Shown here: one piece after another, positions 38,919 to 51,581 of the stretch
Layout of the letters: each line of letters begins with the position of its first letter
How positions within the stretch are numbered: the first letter of the stretch is position 1
Assembly (NCBI GenBank): GCA_030429235.1
Contig: JAUIDB010000025.1
Coordinates: 1-64,000 of the forward strand
Direction of reading: 5' to 3'
Source: Thermoanaerobaculia bacterium
GTDB taxonomy: Bacteria > Acidobacteriota > Thermoanaerobaculia > Multivoradales > JAIOJS01
DNA length: 64,000 nt
Program-made: the position numbers and the translations under genes
Notes under the pieces: model-generated
Told to the model about the DNA's origin: nothing
Databases searched by the model: none
What the model saw: the letters and a program-made list of their open reading frames with translations, nothing else

Positions 38919-39752
38919 ATGAACCAGACCCGAAGAGTTCTCGTCCTCGTCGCCTTGACCTTGACCCTGGCCAGCGCGGCGTTCGGCGGCCGGCGCGAGA
39001 TGATCCGCGTGGGCCCCAGCAACACCTGGTGTCCGGTAGGTATCACCGGCGGAGCGGAGGCTCCCTACCTCGATTGGAACTCCGACCCCGGGGTCCTGAA
39101 TCAGGGGATCTTCGAGTTGAGCTTCGTTGCCTCGCCGGCGGGGGCCACGACCCTGACCTTCGACACCGAGGATGTCGGTCGCCTGGACAACATCTTCCTG
39201 GTCGAACGCGCTGACCTCTTCGACGACGGTGTGAGCCTCTGGGACCTCACGCAATGCCACTCTGGCAGCGTGGCCGAGTACCCCGATAGCCGAGCGCCGG
39301 TCTTCACTGCGGCCGCACCTCCCTTCGACTTCCACGAGGTGTTCGACGACGACCAACCGACGCTCGAAGCCGCGGGTTGGACCTTCCTCAACGCTACCGT
39401 GTCGGGCGGCGGAGACTCCGCCACCGAGGCAGTGGTATTGGGCGACGACTCCACGATCAGCGACGCCTGCCCGCCGAACGTCGGGTGTACCACGGGGCAC
39501 GTGGCCCTGAACGGCGCTCCCGGAAACCCCGCGCGGGTTACGGTGCCGGTGAGCGGTTTGCAACCAGGTGTCACCTACACGATCGTCGCCTGGTGGGACT
39601 TCGCACCCGATACCCAGATCGGCATCGAGTTCAGCGAAGCCGTCATCGAGGTACCGGCTCTGGAGCCTACGGGGCTCGCCCTACTGGTCTTGCTGCTGGT
39701 CGCTTCAGCGATCTTCGTGGTCAGGCGGCGGTCGGCTACCGCGCGCCGCTGA
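38919..39752 (+). CDS. Secreted protein with IPTL-CTERM-like C-terminal tail
   Basis: Signal VLVLVALTLTLASAAFGG; C-terminus VPALEPTGLALLVLLLVASAIFVVRRRSATARR; SD AGGAG before ATG 38919. Confidence 0.72.
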   Translation: MNQTRRVLVLVALTLTLASAAFGGRREMIRVGPSNTWCPVGITGGAEAPYLDWNSDPGVLNQGIFELSFVASPAGATTLTFDTEDVGRLDNIFLVERADLFDDGVSLWDLTQCHSGSVAEYPDSRAPVFTAAAPPFDFHEVFDDDQPTLEAAGWTFLNATVSGGGDSATEAVVLGDDSTISDACPPNVGCTTGHVALNGAPGNPARVTVPVSGLQPGVTYTIVAWWDFAPDTQIGIEFSEAVIEVPALEPTGLALLVLLLVASAIFVVRRRSATARR

Positions 39753-42700
39753 GCACGAAGGGCGCCCAGTGGTAGGGGCTCGCCCAGCGGGCCTGGCGAC
39801 GGATCTCGCGCTGTGCCGCCTGTAGGGCTCGAGCGCTGCTTCGTCGTGGCGACGCCGCTTGGCCGAGCCCCAGTTCTCGGTAGAACGCGGTCATGAGGGC
39901 GGCGGTCGAAGCGTCGTCGACCGGCCACTGACTGGCCAGGACCCGGCGCGATCCGGCCGCCAGGAAACCCCGGGAGAGCGCGAAGACTCCCTCGCCGTCG
40001 ACCTGATGCCCCACGTGGCTGTCACATGCGGAGAGCACCACGAGTTCGGCCTCGAGGGGGAGTTCATAGATCTCGAAGAGCTGGAGGAACCCGTCGTTCT
40101 CGGAGGTTTGGGGCTCCCCTGCGGCGGAGGCGGTCGGGGTGAGTGCCAGGGCGGCCAGCAGGGAACCGGGACTCTCGTCGACCAGTCCGTGGGTGGCGAA
40201 GTGGATGGTGGGAGGCTGCTCTTCGAGTCGCTGGCGTACGGCGGTTTCACTCGCCTCCGGACCGAGCAGCAGCTCCAGTCCCTCGTCGGTCACCAGCTGC
40301 TCGATCCCTTCAGCCTCTCGGCGGGTTCCTGGGAGGCGGGGTAGCCGGCCGTCGGTGCGCAGGAAGTTCCGGCGGAGGTCATCGGAATCGGCGGCCAGGT
40401 CCGGGGTCGTTGGAGGGGCTTCTGCCTCCCCCGAGAAGTCGGGGTCGGCCACCGCCAGGATCGGGGTCCAGGAGTCGCGAGGGGAGCGCTGCTCCAAGTT
40501 GGCGAGGACGGTGGCCGAGGCCGCGTAGCTGATGGCGGGCCCCGCGTCGAGCCAGTAGGTGATCTCGCCGGTGGGGCTCGGTGGCTCGACCACCAGGGCG
40601 GCGAACGGCAGTCGCTGCAGCGCTCCGTCGGGGACGATGGCGACCTGATCGGCCGCCAGAATGCGGTCGCGAATCGGCTCCGGGATCACGATCTCCCACA
40701 GCTGTTGGAGGAGCCGGGTGCTATCGGCGACCGATTGCCCCACCGCGCCTCCGACCTTGATGAGACCGCGGGTCCCCTGCAGGGAGGTCAAGGCTCCGAG
40801 TTCTTGCGGCGAACCGGCGACCAGGGTTTCCAATCGCTGCCGAGTCAGGGGCGTGCTCTCGTCGATCTGGAGGGCGTAGACCTCGAGGGTCCCAGGGAGG
40901 GGTGGAATCAGGAAGAGAAAGCTACCGGTGGCACTCACGTCGTACACCAGCAGAAGGTCGTCTCCCGTGAGCAGGTCCTGCTGCAGTTGCGCCGCGGACA
41001 CGGTTTCGCCGCGGTCCGACATGAGTCGCTGCCAGAGGGGGCTGGCGTCGCGAATTCGGGCGGCGGCCTGGTCGACCTGGCGGGAGGCCAACGAAAGATC
41101 AGACTGTAGTGTCGCTAGCCGTTGGTTGCGCTCCGCTCCCCGTAGGTCGGAGCGCTGCAAGAGGAAGAGGATCTGGCCCTGGAGTTCGGCGAGTCGAGCG
41201 CGGCTCTGGCGGTCTTCGGCCTCCAGGACCGCGAGGCGGGCAGCTGGAATCGAGCGGCGCAGGTCGACGCGGCCAGCAGCGAGTTGCTCGAGAAAGACGC
41301 GCGCCCGCCGCCGCTCGGAGATCTCCAGGGCCTGATGGATCTGACCGCGCTCCAGCTCCCAGGCGACGAGTCGTTCGAAGTAGCGGCTCCAATGGCTGAA
41401 CGAAGCGGCGCGGGCGGTGTCGCTGCCTCCGGTTTCCACCCGCATGGCTTCGACACCCGCCACCGCTTGGCGCATGGACTCGACGGCCGCGTCGAGCTCA
41501 CCGTGCTGGTATTCGAGTTCGGCCAGGATCGCCAGCGCGTCGGAGCGTTCGGCCGGATGCGGCCCCCCCAGGATCAGCACTTCGAGGGCCTCGTCCACGA
41601 GGGCCCGGATGTGAGTCGCGTCACCGCCACGGTCGAGTAGACAGCGGGCCCGGTGGACTAGGGTCTGCGCGGTATCCGGATGCTCCGCTCCCAGCGTCGA
41701 CCGGCGGATGCCAAGCGCTCGATCGAACAGAGTGTTAGCCTCGGCGGCGCGATCCCCCCGACAGAGGAAGACCGCCAGGTCGTCACTCGCCTGCGCCAGA
41801 AGGGGATGCTCTTCGCTGAGCGTACGGTTCAGGATCTCCAGGCCTTCGCGGAATCTCGATTCGGCTCGGTCGTTCTCCCCGGTCAGCGCCAGGAAGACTC
41901 CGTGTTGGTTGAGGCGCCAGACCAGGGCTGGATTGTCGTCGCCGACAATGCCACGGGTGCGACGCACGGCTTCCTCGTAGAGTGGGGCCGCCTCGTCGAA
42001 ACGACCCTGAAACCGCAGAAGTTCGGCCCGATTGATCACTACCGTGTTCAGGGCCCAGGTGAAGCGGTCGGGATCCCGACTCCAGATCGCTTCTGCCTCG
42101 CTCAGCCGTTGCTCACTCTCGCGGTAGCGGCCGACATCCTTGAGAAGGATCGACAGGTTGCTCAATGCCGTCGCCGTCACGCTCGCAGCGTCGGGGGCGG
42201 ACGATCGACGAAGGCGTTGGATCGCGCGTCGGAAGATGGGCTCGGCCGTCCGGTAGTCACCCTGGCTCCGCACGACCTCGGCGAGCCCCTGCAGTCCGTC
42301 CCCCAGGGTCACGAGATCGGGTGCCTTCAGCGCCTCCAGCGTGGTCAAGGAGCGCCGAAAGAGCGTCTCGGCTTCCGCGTAGCGTCCCTGTTGCCACAGC
42401 ACCTTGGCGAGTTCGATCCGACCAGCGGCCGCGACCTCCGAGTCGGCGCCGAAGTGGGACTCGCGCAGCGCCTGGGCTGCCAGGTCTTCGGCTTCGGCCT
42501 CGTCCCACCGTCCGAGATAGTAGAGGTGGAGAGCCAACTCGGCGTGGGCCTCGGCTAGAGCGGGGAAGTGGCGGTCACCCTGCTCGAGAAGGAGGGCCAG
42601 CGAGCGCCGGTGGAGTTCTTCCGCGCTGTTCCAGGCCCTGGGCGATGCGGCGTAGAAGAACTCCTCGGCCAACCGCCGGGCGAGGTCCGCGGCGGCGACG

Positions 42701-42963
42701 GGGTCGGCGGTCGCTCTGCTCGCGACCATGGAGTGCGCTGCGGAGGCCGCTCCCTCGACATCCTCCTCCGAGAGCAGGGCCAGAACTCGCTCGACCTCGT
42801 CGGTCCAGGCCTCGGGAGGCGTGGTTGCCGACTCCGAGGGTCCCGCGGCGGCGGCAGTGCGGGCTTCTGGGGCAGCCGAGCAGGCTCCCAGGCTCAGGAC
42901 GGTGAGAAGAGAGAGGAACAGCTGCGCCCAGAGACGGTGCGGCCAGCGAGCAGTCGTGCGCAT
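39736..42963 (-). CDS. Lipoprotein TPR-CHAT domain (caspase-like) protein
   Basis: Lipobox LSLGAC; TPR array (ALSNLSILLKDVGRYRESEQRLSEAEAIW etc.); C-terminal CHAT with LPGTRREAEGIEQL, IHFATHGLVDE, LVVLSACDSHVG, GVFALSRGFLAAGSRRVLASQWPVDD, YHWAPFVLSG. Confidence 0.92.
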   Translation of the reverse strand: MRTTARWPHRLWAQLFLSLLTVLSLGACSAAPEARTAAAAGPSESATTPPEAWTDEVERVLALLSEEDVEGAASAAHSMVASRATADPVAAADLARRLAEEFFYAASPRAWNSAEELHRRSLALLLEQGDRHFPALAEAHAELALHLYYLGRWDEAEAEDLAAQALRESHFGADSEVAAAGRIELAKVLWQQGRYAEAETLFRRSLTTLEALKAPDLVTLGDGLQGLAEVVRSQGDYRTAEPIFRRAIQRLRRSSAPDAASVTATALSNLSILLKDVGRYRESEQRLSEAEAIWSRDPDRFTWALNTVVINRAELLRFQGRFDEAAPLYEEAVRRTRGIVGDDNPALVWRLNQHGVFLALTGENDRAESRFREGLEILNRTLSEEHPLLAQASDDLAVFLCRGDRAAEANTLFDRALGIRRSTLGAEHPDTAQTLVHRARCLLDRGGDATHIRALVDEALEVLILGGPHPAERSDALAILAELEYQHGELDAAVESMRQAVAGVEAMRVETGGSDTARAASFSHWSRYFERLVAWELERGQIHQALEISERRRARVFLEQLAAGRVDLRRSIPAARLAVLEAEDRQSRARLAELQGQILFLLQRSDLRGAERNQRLATLQSDLSLASRQVDQAAARIRDASPLWQRLMSDRGETVSAAQLQQDLLTGDDLLLVYDVSATGSFLFLIPPLPGTLEVYALQIDESTPLTRQRLETLVAGSPQELGALTSLQGTRGLIKVGGAVGQSVADSTRLLQQLWEIVIPEPIRDRILAADQVAIVPDGALQRLPFAALVVEPPSPTGEITYWLDAGPAISYAASATVLANLEQRSPRDSWTPILAVADPDFSGEAEAPPTTPDLAADSDDLRRNFLRTDGRLPRLPGTRREAEGIEQLVTDEGLELLLGPEASETAVRQRLEEQPPTIHFATHGLVDESPGSLLAALALTPTASAAGEPQTSENDGFLQLFEIYELPLEAELVVLSACDSHVGHQVDGEGVFALSRGFLAAGSRRVLASQWPVDDASTAALMTAFYRELGLGQAASPRRSSARALQAAQREIRRQARWASPYHWAPFVLSGAR

Positions 42964-45475: not shown

Positions 45476-46135
45476 TCAGGTTGGGATCTGGGCCCGAAGG
45501 GCCCGTTCGTAGCCTCTCACGAGCCGCTTCAAACCCTCGGTTCCGGTGTGCGGGGTGAGGGTGATCTCGAGACTCGCCAGCGTTTCTGGGGAAGCCTCGG
45601 GACTCTCCTCTCGCGGGCCAGAGGGGGAGGAGCTGGCGGGGTGGGTCCCCGCCATGGGAAAGCTGACCACCACGGCATCGTTTTCGATCTCGATCTGGAG
45701 GTTCGACCGCAACTTAACCTCCGAGACCTGGGTCATCGACAGCGGGACCAGAGTGATCAGGGGAACCTGGACCTCACACAGGACGAGGCCGTCCGCCGTC
45801 TGTTCCGGATACTGGATCGTGGCCATCTTCGGGCGCAGGGAGCGGTGGGGATCGCTGCCGAGCTTGGCGCCGACGTCGGTCCCATCGCTCAGCGCCTGCC
45901 GCACCTCTTCGACGGCCTTGACGACCTTGCGGAGGGACCCCTTGGTCGGTCGCCGCTCTTCGAGCACTCGATTGGTGGCGTCGACCACACCGTCGAGCGT
46001 CTTCCGAAGTTCGGGATCTTCGTCGCTCTGGTCGAAGAAGCGTTCCAGGAGATCGAGATTGCGGTCCACCAGGGCCTCGTTGGCGGACAGGATGGCATCG
46101 TGGATCGACCCCACGAAGTCTTCGAAGCGAATCAT
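45476..46135 (-). CDS. Divergent DUF2589-like protein
   Basis: SANEALVDRNLDLLERFF; EVQVPLITLVPLSMTQVSEVKLRSNLQIEIE; C-terminal GTEGLKRLVRGYERALRAQ aligns with the two paralogs at 46391 and 47088. Confidence 0.65.
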   Translation of the reverse strand: MIRFEDFVGSIHDAILSANEALVDRNLDLLERFFDQSDEDPELRKTLDGVVDATNRVLEERRPTKGSLRKVVKAVEEVRQALSDGTDVGAKLGSDPHRSLRPKMATIQYPEQTADGLVLCEVQVPLITLVPLSMTQVSEVKLRSNLQIEIENDAVVVSFPMAGTHPASSSPSGPREESPEASPETLASLEITLTPHTGTEGLKRLVRGYERALRAQIPT

Positions 46136-46183
46136 CGTGGCACTCCGGGCGCGAGGATGTTGGCAGCCATGGTGCGTCTCCCC

Positions 46184-46372
46184 TCAGCGCCCCTTCTTGA
46201 GCGCTTCGAGCCGCTCGAGAGACTCCTTGGCCACGGCCCGGCTAGGACCAGAGATGGCGATCGTCGCCTGGCACTTCGGACACGAGAAACCGATTCCTGA
46301 GATCAGCGCTCGCGGTTCGAACGGAATGGGTGTCTGACACTGCGGGCAGGGCACCGTGGCCTCGTAGTTCAT
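46184..46372 (-). CDS. Small zinc-ribbon protein
   Basis: 62 aa, CPQCQTPIPFEPRALISGIGFSCPKCQATIAI (two CxxC knuckles). Confidence 0.75.
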   Translation of the reverse strand: MNYEATVPCPQCQTPIPFEPRALISGIGFSCPKCQATIAISGPSRAVAKESLERLEALKKGR

Positions 46373-46390
46373 GAGTGCTCCTCGAGACGG

Positions 46391-47008
46391 CTACCAATCG
46401 CCGTCGGAGTTGGGTTCCTCGGTCGTCGGGTAGATCGCCTTGCTGTAGGCATCGAGTAGGGTGACGACTCCTTTGGGCAACGGCATGTCGACCGCGACCA
46501 CTTCGACCGAGATGTTGGTGTCGTCGGAAACCTCCTCCTCGACCTCCTCGTGGGAAAGCTCGTGATCACGGCCGATCCGTCCAACCAACTGGGACTTCGT
46601 GGTGGCCGCGCCTGGGTGAAACCCCCGGCCCTCCTCGTCGAGGTCGGCTTCGACCTCGAAGTAGGAGGTCACATCGATCGAGAAGTCCACCGTCGTCTCC
46701 TCGACCCCGAGGGTATTCAGGGGGAGGATGGTGATCAGTGGCACCGAGAAGTCCATCGTGACCGGATCGATCTGCGAGGTCCCACCGTTGGAGGGTTGGA
46801 TTCCCCCGCGCGTGATCGACATCACGATCAGAACCGGATGGTAGACCCCGTGGCGTTCGTAGAAGCAGGTCTCCAGCAGGAACTTGACCTGCTGCACTGC
46901 CATCCGCTCGTTGGCCTTCACCACTGCGAGCAGTGGATTGGATACCAGTTCGTGCAGCGGCAGGCCGCGGTACTCCGGGTTCTTTCGTCGGTTCGTCGTG
47001 CGCTTCAT
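46391..47008 (-). CDS. DUF2589-like protein
   Basis: LPLHELVSNPLLAVVKANERMAVQQVKFLLETCF...GVYHPVLIVMSITRGGIQP...FSVPLITILPLNTLGVEETTVDFSIDV...MPLPKGVVTLLDAYSKAIYP. Confidence 0.82.
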   Translation of the reverse strand: MKRTTNRRKNPEYRGLPLHELVSNPLLAVVKANERMAVQQVKFLLETCFYERHGVYHPVLIVMSITRGGIQPSNGGTSQIDPVTMDFSVPLITILPLNTLGVEETTVDFSIDVTSYFEVEADLDEEGRGFHPGAATTKSQLVGRIGRDHELSHEEVEEEVSDDTNISVEVVAVDMPLPKGVVTLLDAYSKAIYPTTEEPNSDGDW

Positions 47009-47087
47009 TTCGGGGTTCGCGTCGCTTGGTCTCGTGGTCTCGGCGTGGTCGGTCGATCGGTCGGTTTCGGGCCGCTAGAGCGCGGCG

Positions 47088-47732
47088 TCAGGGCGAGTCC
47101 GGCAGGACGAGGGGCTCGATCGCCAGGGTGTACGCCTCGATGATGGTGTTGACGCCCTTCGGCACCGGGAGCTGGCCGGCGTGCACATTGACGGTGTACT
47201 TGGCCGAGTTGCTCTTTTCGTAGTGTGAGCTGAAACTCGATGTGTCCTTGGAGTCGTAGCTCGCCGTGCCTTTGACGCTGGCCGAGACGGGGCCCCAGCC
47301 GACCTTGACCTCCCATTCGGCGGAAGCACTGATCTCGGTCTCCTGGGACTTGCTCTGATCCTCGCCGTAGCTCGACTTGACCTCCATCTCGAAGGTGATG
47401 TCGACGTTGTCCACTCCGAGTGAGTTGATCGGGATGATCGTGATCAGGGGCAGGTCGAAGGTGGTCACCACCGGTTCGATCGAGGGTTTGTCGCCCTCCT
47501 TGGGGCCCGGGGTGATGACGCCGCGGGTCAGACTCATCTTGATCATGACCGGCTTGTACTCGCCGTTCTCGGTCTTCGAGAAGCAGGTGTCGAGGATGAA
47601 CTTCGTTTGGGTCACCGCCATCGCGGCATTGGCGTTCGCGGCGGCGTTGAGGGGGGCGCCGATGAGGGAGTCCATCGGGAGTCCCGTGAACTGCTCGGCC
47701 ATGGAAACTAGGGCTTTTTCTTCTGCTGGCAT
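47088..47732 (-). CDS. DUF2589-like protein
   Basis: LPMDSLIGAPLNAAANANAAMAVTQTKFILDTCF...GEYKPVMIKMSLTRGVITP...FDLPLITIIPINSLGVDNVDITFEMEV...LPVPKGVNTIIEAYTLAIEPL. Confidence 0.85.
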   Translation of the reverse strand: MPAEEKALVSMAEQFTGLPMDSLIGAPLNAAANANAAMAVTQTKFILDTCFSKTENGEYKPVMIKMSLTRGVITPGPKEGDKPSIEPVVTTFDLPLITIIPINSLGVDNVDITFEMEVKSSYGEDQSKSQETEISASAEWEVKVGWGPVSASVKGTASYDSKDTSSFSSHYEKSNSAKYTVNVHAGQLPVPKGVNTIIEAYTLAIEPLVLPDSP

Positions 47733-47804
47733 CGTCGATCTCTCCTTGACGGAAGGTGGTGGGTCGTGACCGATTCCGGGCGGAGTCGGCCTGGCGAGGG
47801 CGCG

Positions 47805-48068
47805 TCAGAACTGACAGTTGCTCTTGGAATTCACCAGGTAGTCCAACTCGAGGTCCAGGGCCTCGATGACGCTCGCGAACGCGGTCCTGACATCTCCGAT
47901 GCCACCGTCTCCGGTGTACTTGATCCGCTTGTTGCAGGTGCCGTCCATGCCGACCCCGCAGGGATTGAGCACGAAGACGTGGTACCCCTTCAGACGTTCG
48001 TAGACGCTCTGGCAGTTCGAGATACTGCGGTCGGCGCCTGTCACCATCGAGTTGTAGTACTTGGCCAT
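47805..48068 (-). CDS. Small four-Cys protein of unknown function in the DUF2589 cluster
   Basis: 87 aa MAKYYNSMVTGADRSISNCQSVYERLKGYHVFVLNPCGVGMDGTCNKRIKYTGDGG...; strong SD AAGGAG. Confidence 0.7.
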   Translation of the reverse strand: MAKYYNSMVTGADRSISNCQSVYERLKGYHVFVLNPCGVGMDGTCNKRIKYTGDGGIGDVRTAFASVIEALDLELDYLVNSKSNCQF

Positions 48069-48240
48069 CTCGTTTCGGCTCCTTTTTGCGTCGGGTTGCA
48101 GTTGGGTTGTTGTCTGATGGCCTCTAGGTTGTCGGGGTGGACGGGGAAGTGCGACCGCAATCGGCGCTATCGACGAACTCTGCGCCAATGTCGCGATTGG
48201 CGGCGTTCATTTGGCGTGGGGTGTCAGTTGGTGGGTCCCT

Positions 48241-48498
48241 TCAAAGGTCCTTCAGGGCTCGAGAACGCAAGTAGGCCAGCAAGGACTCTCGCCGCAGCCA
48301 GTACCGAGGCCCCACGAGGACCGCGTCGACCTCTCCGACTTCGATCCACCGTTGGACCGTCCTCGTTCCGACCGCGGCCAGCGTCGCCGCTTCCGTGACC
48401 GTGCAGAAGATCTCGGTGCGAGCCGCCGGCTCTAGAGCCAGGAATCGATCGAGTAGCTCGTCGGGTGGCTGCGGAGCCAGTAGGCTGTGGTGGTTCAT
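48241..48498 (-). CDS. Small HTH (excisionase/MerR-like HTH_17) DNA-binding protein
   Basis: CTVTEAATLAAVGTRTVQRWIEVGEVDAVLVGPRYWLRRESLLAYL. Confidence 0.68.
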   Translation of the reverse strand: MNHHSLLAPQPPDELLDRFLALEPAARTEIFCTVTEAATLAAVGTRTVQRWIEVGEVDAVLVGPRYWLRRESLLAYLRSRALKDL

Positions 48499-48868
48499 GA
48501 CCCGTTCCCCGGAGAGGGCCCGGCGGTCTCGCGGGCACCAGGGCGATGGCGAGATCGGTGTCCCTTCATGGTTCTGTCTCCTTCTCTGCACCAGGCTGAC
48601 GTGTCTCGACCCGTCGTGCTGGACCGAACCCGATCCCAGGTAGGTAGTGGCCCGCGGGGCGGTTCGCGGGCTCCAGGGTCGTCGGAGTTGCGGTTCGAAT
48701 CGAGATGTGGATAGTGAAACCATTTTAGAGTCTTGTGAACATCTATATGCGACACTTATTACGTACGTCGTTCTAATTGTGTGTCCAGTGACTTCGGTTC
48801 ATGGAGTGGATGTCAGATCGCTGTCGGGAAGGGTTGCGGACTCGAGGGGACACCCCGACCGGTCGCGT

Positions 48869-48874
48869 TAGACT
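48869..48874 (+). promoter_or_regulatory. -10 element upstream of the kinase-propeller gene
   Basis: TAGACT, 10 nt before ATG 48885. Confidence 0.45.
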
Positions 48875-48884
48875 GCGAGGTGCG

Positions 48885-51581
48885 ATGACCGAACCCTTTC
48901 GGATCGACGACCCAGCTGCCGCGGGGCGGCCACTAGGTCGTTTCGAGCTCCATCGCCTCCTCGGTCGGGGTGGCGGGGGAGCGGTCTGGCGAGCCCACGA
49001 CCGCGAGCTCGGTCGCGACGTCGCCGTCAAGGTGGCGAAGGTGCAGAGCGACGCAGTGCGGTCACGCCAGCGCTTTCAGCGTGAGATCCGGGCGCTGGCG
49101 GCCTTGAACCACCCGGGGGTGGCCCAGGTCTACGAGGCGGGGACGGCCTCCTGGCCGCTGCATCCCGAGGTCGAGGTGGCCTTCCTGGTGATGGAGTACG
49201 TGCCGGGCGAGACGCTGTCGCAGCGCCTGTCCCGCGGACCGATCGAGGTCGCGGAGGCGGTCGAGGTGGTGTGCGCTCTGCTCGAGGGCCTGGCGGCGGC
49301 GCACGACCGGATGATCGCCCACCGGGACATCAAACCTTCGAACGTGATGTTGACCGGGGACGGCGGAGTCAAGCTCCTCGATCTCGGGTTGGCCAAGGTC
49401 CAGACCTGGGACCAGCCCGACCCTCTGGCCGAGGCGGACGGAGTCCAGACCATCGTCGACGGGCCGCTGGGGGATGAGCTGCCACTCACCGAACACGGCA
49501 AGGTGCTGGGAACTCCAGGCTACATGGCACCGGAGCAGGCACGGGGCGGAGCGGCCGATCTGAGGAGCGACATCTTCGCCGTCGGCCTCCTCTTGTGGGA
49601 GTTGCTGACCGGTCGTCGCGCCGTGCGGGCTCGAACTCCGGTCGAGAGTCTGCAGGCAACGATCGACTTCGAAGCCCGGCCCGAAGATCTTCCGGCTTCG
49701 ATTCCCGCCCCGTTGCGACGAGTCGTGCTGCGCTGTCTGGCGCGCCGTAGTTCGGATCGCTACCATCATGCACGAGACCTTCTGTACGACCTTCGCCGGT
49801 CCCTCGAACCCGCCCTGGAGGTCGAATCGCGACCGGGCAACCGGTGGCCGGCTGCCACGGGGGCGCTGCTGCTGCTCGCTCTGACGCTGGTGGCAGGACT
49901 CTGGCTCTGGCGGGGTCCGACGGGCACTACCGAGCCACCGCGCGCCGGGATCGAGGAACTCGAGGTGCCCTGGAACGCTCCGGTTCTCGTTCCGGACGGC
50001 GAGGGAGTGGTGTTCAAGACCCGCGATGGCGACTCGATCTGGTTCGGAGCTCTGGAGTCTGGCGTCGAACGGCAGATCTGGAACGGAGACGGCATCGTCG
50101 AGTCGATGGCGATCACTCCGAGCGGGCGCGATGTGGTCTTCGAACTCCGCGAGGCATCGGGGCAAAGAGCCGTCTGGGAGGTACCGTTCTCGGGAGGGGC
50201 CGCGCGGCGGATCACCACCGGCTGGGGACCCGCGGTATCCCCGAACGGTACGACGCTGGCGCTCTTCGATGCTGACGAGAAGGGGAGTAGCGTCTTCGTC
50301 TGCGGGCGCGATGGCACCGAGAAGCGGGCGGTCGCCCGACTCGAGGGACCGCTGGCACCGGTCGGTCTCGTCTTCTCTGAGGACGGACGTCGGCTCTGGC
50401 TGGTGCGTTCCGATACCTACCACCTGACCCAGGTGCACGAGGTCGAGATCACGACCGGAGCGATCCGCCTGGTCCGCGAACTCGAGGGCTGGGTTCGGGC
50501 CGGGCTCTGGAGGACGCCGGACGGTCGGCTGCTGCTGTCGAAGGTGACCACCGAAGCCCACAGCATTCTGGCGGTGCTCGGGGAGGATGGGCTCGACCCG
50601 GTTCTCCCCGGGGCGAGCTACTACACCTCTCCCTCGATGAGTCGCGACGGAAGCCTCCTCACCCTGCAGTCGAACCGCGAGCGGATCAACCTGGTCCGGG
50701 TGCCGATCGACCTCACCGGGGCGCGTCCGGCCACGGACGGGCCCCGCTTGGGACCTCCCGGAAACTCGAACCAACCGCGACTGGCTCCGTCTGGCGAACG
50801 GCTGGCCTTCGCGCGGCGGCGGGGACACATCTGGATCCTCGATCTCGAGAGTGGTGCCGCGCGGCCGTTGGTCACCATGGGGGATACGGCGGTCAATCCA
50901 GCCTGGTCCCGAGACGGTGAGCGGTTGGCCTTCTCCGTGCTGAAAGAGGGCGCGTCGGATCTATGGCTCGTCGAGGGCGACGGGACGGGGCCGGTCCCGC
51001 TGCTCGACGATCCGGCCAACGATTTCCACCCCGACTGGCATCCCGATGGCGACCATCTGTTCTGGATCTCCGATCGGGACGGTCAGGAGGACCTGTACCG
51101 GTTGCACGTAGGCGACGGTGAGGTGGTCCGTTTGAGCCGGGCCGGAGCCCTCAATCCGAGCATCTCCGCCCAGGGCGATCTCGTGGCGTTCGTGCGTCGG
51201 AGTAGTGGTCGTCGCTGTCAGTTGCTCGTCTACCAGCTGACCCCGGAACTCGACCTGGGGGACCTGCGGTGGACCACGGAGGAAGAGTGTGGCTACTGGG
51301 GTGGGCTTCGCCCGCGGTTTGCCCGCTCGGGTCTCTGGCTGGCGTACGATCGTCCCCAGGCGGAGGGCGCCGACTTGTGGGCGGTGGACCTGTCGGTGCC
51401 GGGCGAGCCAGAGCCGGTCCGTCTGACCCAGTTCGATCAACCAGTGGGGTTGGCGGGCTGGTTCGACTGGGAGGGGATGGATGGGATGATCGTCTCGGTA
51501 CTCCGCCGGGAAGAGTCGCTCCTGCTGCTCCGCGACGCACGGCTCTGGATCCAGGCTGCTTCGAGTCGGTGGCGCCGCTGA
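48885..51581 (+). CDS. Ser/Thr kinase with C-terminal TolB/PD40-like beta-propeller
   Basis: LHRLLGRGGGGAVWRAHDRELGRDVAVKV; IAHRDIKPSNVML; KLLDLGLAKV (DLG variant); TM ALLLLALTLVAGLWLW; PAWSRDGERLAFSVLKEGASDLWLV, DWHPDGDHLFWISDRDGQEDLYRL. Confidence 0.92.
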   Translation: MTEPFRIDDPAAAGRPLGRFELHRLLGRGGGGAVWRAHDRELGRDVAVKVAKVQSDAVRSRQRFQREIRALAALNHPGVAQVYEAGTASWPLHPEVEVAFLVMEYVPGETLSQRLSRGPIEVAEAVEVVCALLEGLAAAHDRMIAHRDIKPSNVMLTGDGGVKLLDLGLAKVQTWDQPDPLAEADGVQTIVDGPLGDELPLTEHGKVLGTPGYMAPEQARGGAADLRSDIFAVGLLLWELLTGRRAVRARTPVESLQATIDFEARPEDLPASIPAPLRRVVLRCLARRSSDRYHHARDLLYDLRRSLEPALEVESRPGNRWPAATGALLLLALTLVAGLWLWRGPTGTTEPPRAGIEELEVPWNAPVLVPDGEGVVFKTRDGDSIWFGALESGVERQIWNGDGIVESMAITPSGRDVVFELREASGQRAVWEVPFSGGAARRITTGWGPAVSPNGTTLALFDADEKGSSVFVCGRDGTEKRAVARLEGPLAPVGLVFSEDGRRLWLVRSDTYHLTQVHEVEITTGAIRLVRELEGWVRAGLWRTPDGRLLLSKVTTEAHSILAVLGEDGLDPVLPGASYYTSPSMSRDGSLLTLQSNRERINLVRVPIDLTGARPATDGPRLGPPGNSNQPRLAPSGERLAFARRRGHIWILDLESGAARPLVTMGDTAVNPAWSRDGERLAFSVLKEGASDLWLVEGDGTGPVPLLDDPANDFHPDWHPDGDHLFWISDRDGQEDLYRLHVGDGEVVRLSRAGALNPSISAQGDLVAFVRRSSGRRCQLLVYQLTPELDLGDLRWTTEEECGYWGGLRPRFARSGLWLAYDRPQAEGADLWAVDLSVPGEPEPVRLTQFDQPVGLAGWFDWEGMDGMIVSVLRREESLLLLRDARLWIQAASSRWRR

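Follow-up and report, generated by a model that had tools for sequence, protein, structure and literature searches.

The major finding for the first 64,000 nucleotides of Thermoanaerobaculia bacterium contig JAUIDB010000025.1 (this whole stretch is here called the window) is a compact set of four genes at 45476-47732 which, by sequence comparison, is a real, conserved, four-gene operon-like module. It encodes three paralogous proteins of the DUF2589 family (PF11655), named D, C, and A here, together with a zinc ribbon protein, B. In other genomes, DUF2589 modules recurrently adjoin genes for cell wall hydrolases and peptidases, an association that is well supported by the gene neighborhoods compared and is newly described here. 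Six open reading frames (ORFs) were considered, all of which lie co-oriented on the minus strand at the positions given in a first-pass annotation of the window, as follows.

47088..47732, minus strand: gene D, large DUF2589 subunit with a Ser/Thr-rich insert (residues about 120-174); 214 amino acids (aa); PF11655
46391..47008, minus strand: gene C, second DUF2589 subunit, without the Ser/Thr-rich insert; 205 aa; PF11655
46184..46372, minus strand: gene B, zinc ribbon (CPxC...CPxC); 62 aa; two CxxC
45476..46135, minus strand: gene A, third and most diverged DUF2589 subunit, with a helical N-terminal extension; 219 aa; PF11655
47805..48068, minus strand: ORF E, four-Cys protein upstream of D; orphan; 87 aa
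48241..48498, minus strand: ORF F, excisionase/HTH_17-type DNA-binding protein; 85 aa; TIGR01764 E=2.5e-8, PF12728 E=1.6e-6

The proposal of the first-pass annotation that D, C, and A are DUF2589 paralogs was supported by the following data. All three matched PF11655 over the family length (E=4e-30 for D, 3e-18 for C, and 5.6e-7 for A in Pfam), with bit scores of 105.6, 67.1, and 30.5, respectively, all above the curated cut-off of 23. D and C were 36% identical over 198 aa (E=2e-36), while profile-profile comparison (hhalign) linked the C family to the A family (E=7e-7) and, more weakly, the D family to the A family (E=8e-4). From the Pfam matches, the D-C identity, and these two profile matches, the paralogy was deduced to be real, the degenerate member A included. 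The motifs on which the proposal had rested (NAxMAVTQTKFxLDTCF, PLITxxPxxxLxV, and PKGVxTxIxAYxxAI) fell on conserved alignment columns and were degenerate in A. The zinc ribbon was also borne out, its four Cys residues being invariant in the 26 loci aligned, among which B was 26 to 48% identical; no Pfam family reached its curated cut-off for B. None of the four proteins encoded by the module showed an apparent signal peptide or transmembrane (TM) segment, in agreement with the cytosolic location that had been proposed from the sequence.

The four genes were also found together elsewhere. A scan of 85,462 species genomes using D as the query gave 27 loci, in which D was 47 to 75% identical, from six phyla (Bacteroidota, Acidobacteriota, Pseudomonadota, Ignavibacteriota, Chlorobiota, and Fibrobacterota). 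These loci, two further ones, and the window made up a set of 30, some of which are near-duplicates, so that the independent cases are somewhat fewer. The order D-C-zinc ribbon-A on one strand was present in 24 of the 30, with gaps mostly below 150 bp. The window, where the four genes are co-directional with gaps of 79, 18, and 48 bp, shares its order with 23 of the 29 other loci. The exceptions were loci L011 and L012 (contig ends), L016 and L021 (rotated order), L015 (C not detected), and L029 (zinc ribbon ORF present, overlapped by an over-extended A ORF). Gene D was the best conserved member. The C and A families were found to have diverged in parallel (Mantel r=0.72, 0/2000 permutations), whereas the D-A value was only 0.29.

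The co-occurrence anticipated in the first-pass annotation therefore held for D, C, the zinc ribbon, and A and failed for the four-Cys and helix-turn-helix (HTH) proteins, as E and F were found in no relative examined. ORF E gave no match in Pfam, NCBIfam, or PHROGs, and searches of 59 relatives, of viral contigs, and of the fetched loci turned up no homologue of it; ORF F had no counterpart in the other fetched loci. Both were rejected as parts of the module. Since E and F do not travel with the unit, the finding was bounded at 45476-47732, with ORF E probably outside the conserved module.

The neighboring enzymes assigned to DUF2589 loci were as follows.

GH25: L008, L009, L010, and L100, downstream of the module
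GH25: L003, upstream on the other strand (read from the sequence; GH25 match in its genome)
N-acetylmuramidase PF11860: L038 (1e-69) and L035 (2e-66)
Phage_lysozyme: L113 (1e-45)
Amidase_3: L114 (4e-10)
Tlde1: L013 (3e-12)
Peptidase_C58: L026 (1e-6)
CHAP: L098 and L099
S8 peptidase: L088 (2e-51)
MltA: L007 (5e-6)
Trypsin_2: L091 (6e-15)
PG_binding domains: L105 and L092

Among 129 downstream genes, GH25 was found four times, PG_binding three times, CHAP twice, and SLT and a Tle1-like phospholipase once each, while for 128 genes farther away no wall hydrolase family was present among the 25 families listed. The GH25 case could be set against the genomic background. The 28 carrier genomes (115.6 Mb) contained 14 GH25 genes, 4 of which lay within 2 kb of a module compared with about 0.03 expected (binomial P of about 1e-8, a value that is optimistic because the family was picked after its recurrence had been noticed). 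Several of the GH25 genes begin about 3 to 340 bp from gene A on the same strand. A clear leader or TM segment was seen in none of the 16 neighbor enzymes checked, GH25 and MltA excepted. In two culturable carriers, Cognaticolwellia aestuarii and Neptunitalea sp. Y10, a hydrolase gene adjoins the module.

These data bear directly on whether the proximity is a neighborhood effect, in which the modules would simply belong to mobile islands and have some unrelated cytosolic role, the enzymes hitch-hiking in variable regions. The patchy distribution and the variable neighbors are consistent with this, as is the presence of several modules, the window's among them, that have no enzyme neighbor. It is nevertheless considered quite unlikely, as GH25 genes cluster with the module far more often than the genome background would predict and several of them sit on the same strand at the short distances from gene A given above.

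The distribution of the family was rare and patchy, with carriers of DUF2589 in 3/396 Acidobacteriota, 28/396 Bacteroidota, and 9/399 Pseudomonadota genomes. In the present genome, DUF2589 occurs only at the window locus. In the D tree, the window copy was placed with Flavobacteriaceae and Saprospiraceae sequences (a set of four with support of 98/95) and apart from the other acidobacterial sequence. The GC content was about 0.62 over the module versus 0.64 to 0.69 in the flanks. DUF2589 was absent from the one congeneric genome tested, G1205, which has kept an orthologue of the neighboring DUF4388 gene (76% identity) in a different setting. A clean empty site was not recovered, as the G1205 neighbors beyond DUF4388 differ and no simple insertion junction was found. 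Because of the Bacteroidota grouping, the GC dip, and the absence from the congeneric genome, the window module looks to have been acquired horizontally.

The AlphaFold models were informative for parts of the proteins. The model of A (mean predicted local distance difference test score, pLDDT, of 80; predicted template modeling score, pTM, of 0.48) has helices at its N terminus, a sheet of antiparallel strands, and a helix at its C terminus. For D (pLDDT 66), the confident core comprises a long helix at residues 20 to 50, four strands, and a C-terminal helix, while the Ser/Thr-rich insert at 120-174 has a pLDDT below 50 and may be flexible, or ordered only within an oligomer. Foldseek searches of the PDB gave no fold match for A or for the only partly confident D model (best E-values above 1), and D had no sequence relative there. 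The best viral structure match was an unnamed 148-aa protein (E=2e-3, TM-score 0.22), which is not interpretable. A gasdermin-like or other pore fold was not detected.

From the gene order and the enzyme neighbors, we tentatively hypothesized that the module encodes a hetero-oligomer that carries leaderless hydrolases and peptidases or serves in their release. Complex formation, carriage or release of enzymes, and antibacterial use are what we infer here. D, C, and A would assemble in the cytosol as a hetero-oligomer through the long N-terminal helix and antiparallel sheet common to the three, with the zinc ribbon B as a subunit for assembly or docking. This complex would carry a variable enzyme whose gene lies next to the module, in most cases a leaderless cell wall hydrolase or peptidase, or would assist the release of that enzyme across the envelope; attack on other bacteria would probably be the purpose. 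The locus itself would be a horizontally spread four-gene module. The more specific form of this proposal, a sheath-less apparatus of three paralogous subunits and a zinc ribbon that forms a cytosolic hetero-oligomer and carries or exports polymorphic leaderless cargo against other cells, is possible but should be regarded as doubtful.

Several observations weigh against the carrier proposal. The main weakness in applying it to this locus is that the window copy is a cargo-less example, with no hydrolase or peptidase neighbor to its own module; the window's cargo, if any, must therefore be encoded elsewhere or have been lost. Many other modules also lack a recognizable enzyme neighbor, so that the feature is common and not universal. 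The GH25 and MltA neighbors carry membrane anchors or signal peptides and therefore need no carrier. An exporter, needle, sheath, or tube gene consistently linked to the modules was not found, and the models of A and D gave no structure match to a tube, pore, or carrier. The divergence of D is only weakly in step with that of C and A, and the control comparison of neighbor genes is incomplete, since it rests on the 25 families listed per set.

The anchored or exported GH25 and MltA neighbors would suit a surface or envelope assembly, in which a DUF2589 structure spans or resides in the envelope and the neighboring hydrolase makes a local opening in the cell wall of the producer itself. Dedicated lytic transglycosylases open the wall in this manner for flagella and secretion systems. 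Further support comes from a D protein that bears Big_1 Ig-like repeats at its C terminus (L102:9162-10748; 4e-12), such repeats being usually an extracellular, surface-protein feature, and from some Bacteroidales copies that lie among polysaccharide-type genes. However, D, C, and A lack signal peptides, and an export channel linked to the modules was not seen. Hydrolase neighbors other than GH25 and MltA are leaderless, and Tlde1, C58, and the Tle1-like phospholipase do not belong among wall-opening factors of that kind. An envelope assembly was accordingly judged to be unlikely.

The small proteins encoded within or near the modules raised a different interpretation. Variable small proteins that contain a cationic amphipathic helix are encoded between the zinc ribbon and A at L017, L018, L024, L026, and L028, and amphipathic-helix small proteins were also found at L038, L008, L009, and L006. 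At L120 and L087, a cationic amphipathic segment is fused to the zinc ribbon; the L120 segment (muH 0.60) ranked in the top 1% of the background, while that of L087 was not above it, and the helical moment was clearly above background for only some of the small proteins. Several of them end in a motif resembling the DUF2589 C-terminal helix (PLPxGxxKMLDLY). The small amphipathic proteins are possibly a membrane-active or membrane-tethering part of the module.

In this interpretation, self-directed lysis or defense, D (with its Ser/Thr-rich, low-confidence insert) and the small amphipathic proteins would permeabilize the inner membrane and the leaderless enzyme would then kill the cell or free its contents. 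The module would thereby resemble a holin-endolysin pair or a protease-triggered pore-former. The endolysin-like leaderless enzymes (Phage_lysozyme, N-acetylmuramidase, and CHAP) and the trypsin, subtilisin, and C58 peptidases adjoining modules are consistent with this, as are the cationic amphipathic proteins, including the two zinc ribbon fusions. PADLOC matches among the module neighbors can also be counted here, although they were limited to generic subtilase and trypsin-like proteases. On the other hand, D, C, A, and B had no PADLOC match, no pore fold was seen, the amphipathic-helix enrichment was mostly modest, and outward action agrees better with the Ig-like fusion and with Tlde1, which is known as a domain of type VI secretion system (T6SS) effectors. 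Self-directed lysis or defense was thus deemed improbable, and a known anti-phage defense system was rejected because the core proteins were without a PADLOC match. A conflict-type role, which the first-pass annotation had raised, is made more plausible by the wall hydrolases and peptidases beside modules in other genomes.

The first-pass annotation had also suggested a phage-derived origin, which found no support. PHROGs gave no match beyond chance for D, C, or A, and no IMG/VR contig encoded a relative of the window's D; together with the phage records, these results led to the rejection of a phage origin for modules of the window's type. Phage holin-endolysin cassettes resemble some DUF2589 loci in combining phage-type lysozyme, muramidase, or CHAP with small amphipathic proteins, and differ from them in that the DUF2589 core has neither TM segments nor the PHROGs and IMG/VR matches sought. 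In the single distant viral-contig match, the IMG/VR contig L123, an integrase-like gene directly follows a C gene that looks shortened, with an altered C terminus. This looks like host DNA flanking a prophage, as if the prophage had integrated into the module.

The outward direction suggested by Tlde1 leads to T6SSs and extracellular contractile injection systems (eCISs), for which the DUF2589 proteins could be effector chaperones or adaptors. T6SS effectors classically include Tlde1 and Tle1-like domains, and the DUF2589 loci resemble T6SS effector islands in that a conserved core is accompanied by a changing set of leaderless wall hydrolases and of Tlde1 and Tle1-like enzymes, a resemblance in the manner of working only. 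VipB/TssC (PF05943) was, however, unmatched in this genome, being present in 6/29 carriers and absent from 23/29. The likeness to eCISs lies in an eCIS_core cargo-type protein beside one module (L003) and, by analogy, in the cytosolic multisubunit assembly with variable cargo that is proposed here; the contractile sheath (PF04984) was unmatched in this genome, being present in 6/20 carrier genomes or records and absent from 14/20. As neither system is found in this genome or in most carriers, dependence on T6SS or eCIS was rejected as a general explanation, and an accessory role is largely refuted and very unlikely. The L003 protein (L003:12193-16665, 1490 aa) combines an eCIS_core domain (2e-30) with a weak match to a nonspecific endonuclease and is encoded convergently with the module in a Melioribacteraceae genome.

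More distant forms of the module were obtained from family searches and from plasmid or phage records. The Bacteroidota form has a single DUF2589 gene accompanied by two other conserved genes (e.g., L090 and L099), and the Pseudomonadota form has two DUF2589 genes (L111-L114); an extra A-like subunit lies between D and C at L038, L087, and L102. On the Vibrio sp. 16 plasmid pVDT1 (L036), two small ORFs separate a DUF2589 pair from upstream genes that are annotated as encoding ABC transporter proteins of the HlyD and peptidase-domain types. This arrangement hints that the lineage may use a type I exporter.

In the window, the module is followed downstream by the convergent DUF4388 gene and preceded by ORFs E and F. 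A promoter scan gave nothing exceeding chance. The perfect inverted repeat CGCCAATgtcgcgATTGGCG at 48183-48202, between ORFs F and E, is unmatched elsewhere in the window when as many as 2 mismatches are allowed (chance expectation, 0.13) and is a possible operator for F. A Ser/Thr protein kinase-like gene, read from the sequence, lies divergent from the module at 48801-51581 on the plus strand. At L129:4406-7066, in genome G1225 of the same order, a kinase-like gene and a von Willebrand A-like protein gene are located beside DUF2589 genes. The window also encodes, at 39736-42963 on the minus strand, a 1075-aa tetratricopeptide repeat (TPR) protein with a C-terminal CHAT (caspase-like) domain (PF12770, 5e-66) and a lipoprotein-like N-terminal segment.

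The lack of an established function for DUF2589, stated in the first-pass annotation, agrees with the open literature. In a library of 5.39 million open papers, with subscription journals and preprints mostly outside its coverage, DUF2589 was named in a single transcriptome study, without a function, and PF11655 was not mentioned. That study (PMC3949148) reported that in Archaeoglobus fulgidus the DUF2589-related genes AF0414-AF0417, listed as a group, are up-regulated on lactate. The DUF2589 family is already in Pfam with its function unassigned, and A, C, and D all match it, whereas the four-gene operon and its hydrolase neighbors are not described in the open papers searched; the module is apparently undescribed as a system. 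DUF2589, a widespread yet unstudied family, thereby gains its first functional lead in the operon architecture and the link to wall hydrolases and peptidases. If this link is causal, the module would represent either a new delivery or release route for enzymes that mostly have no export signal or a new lysis or defense system.

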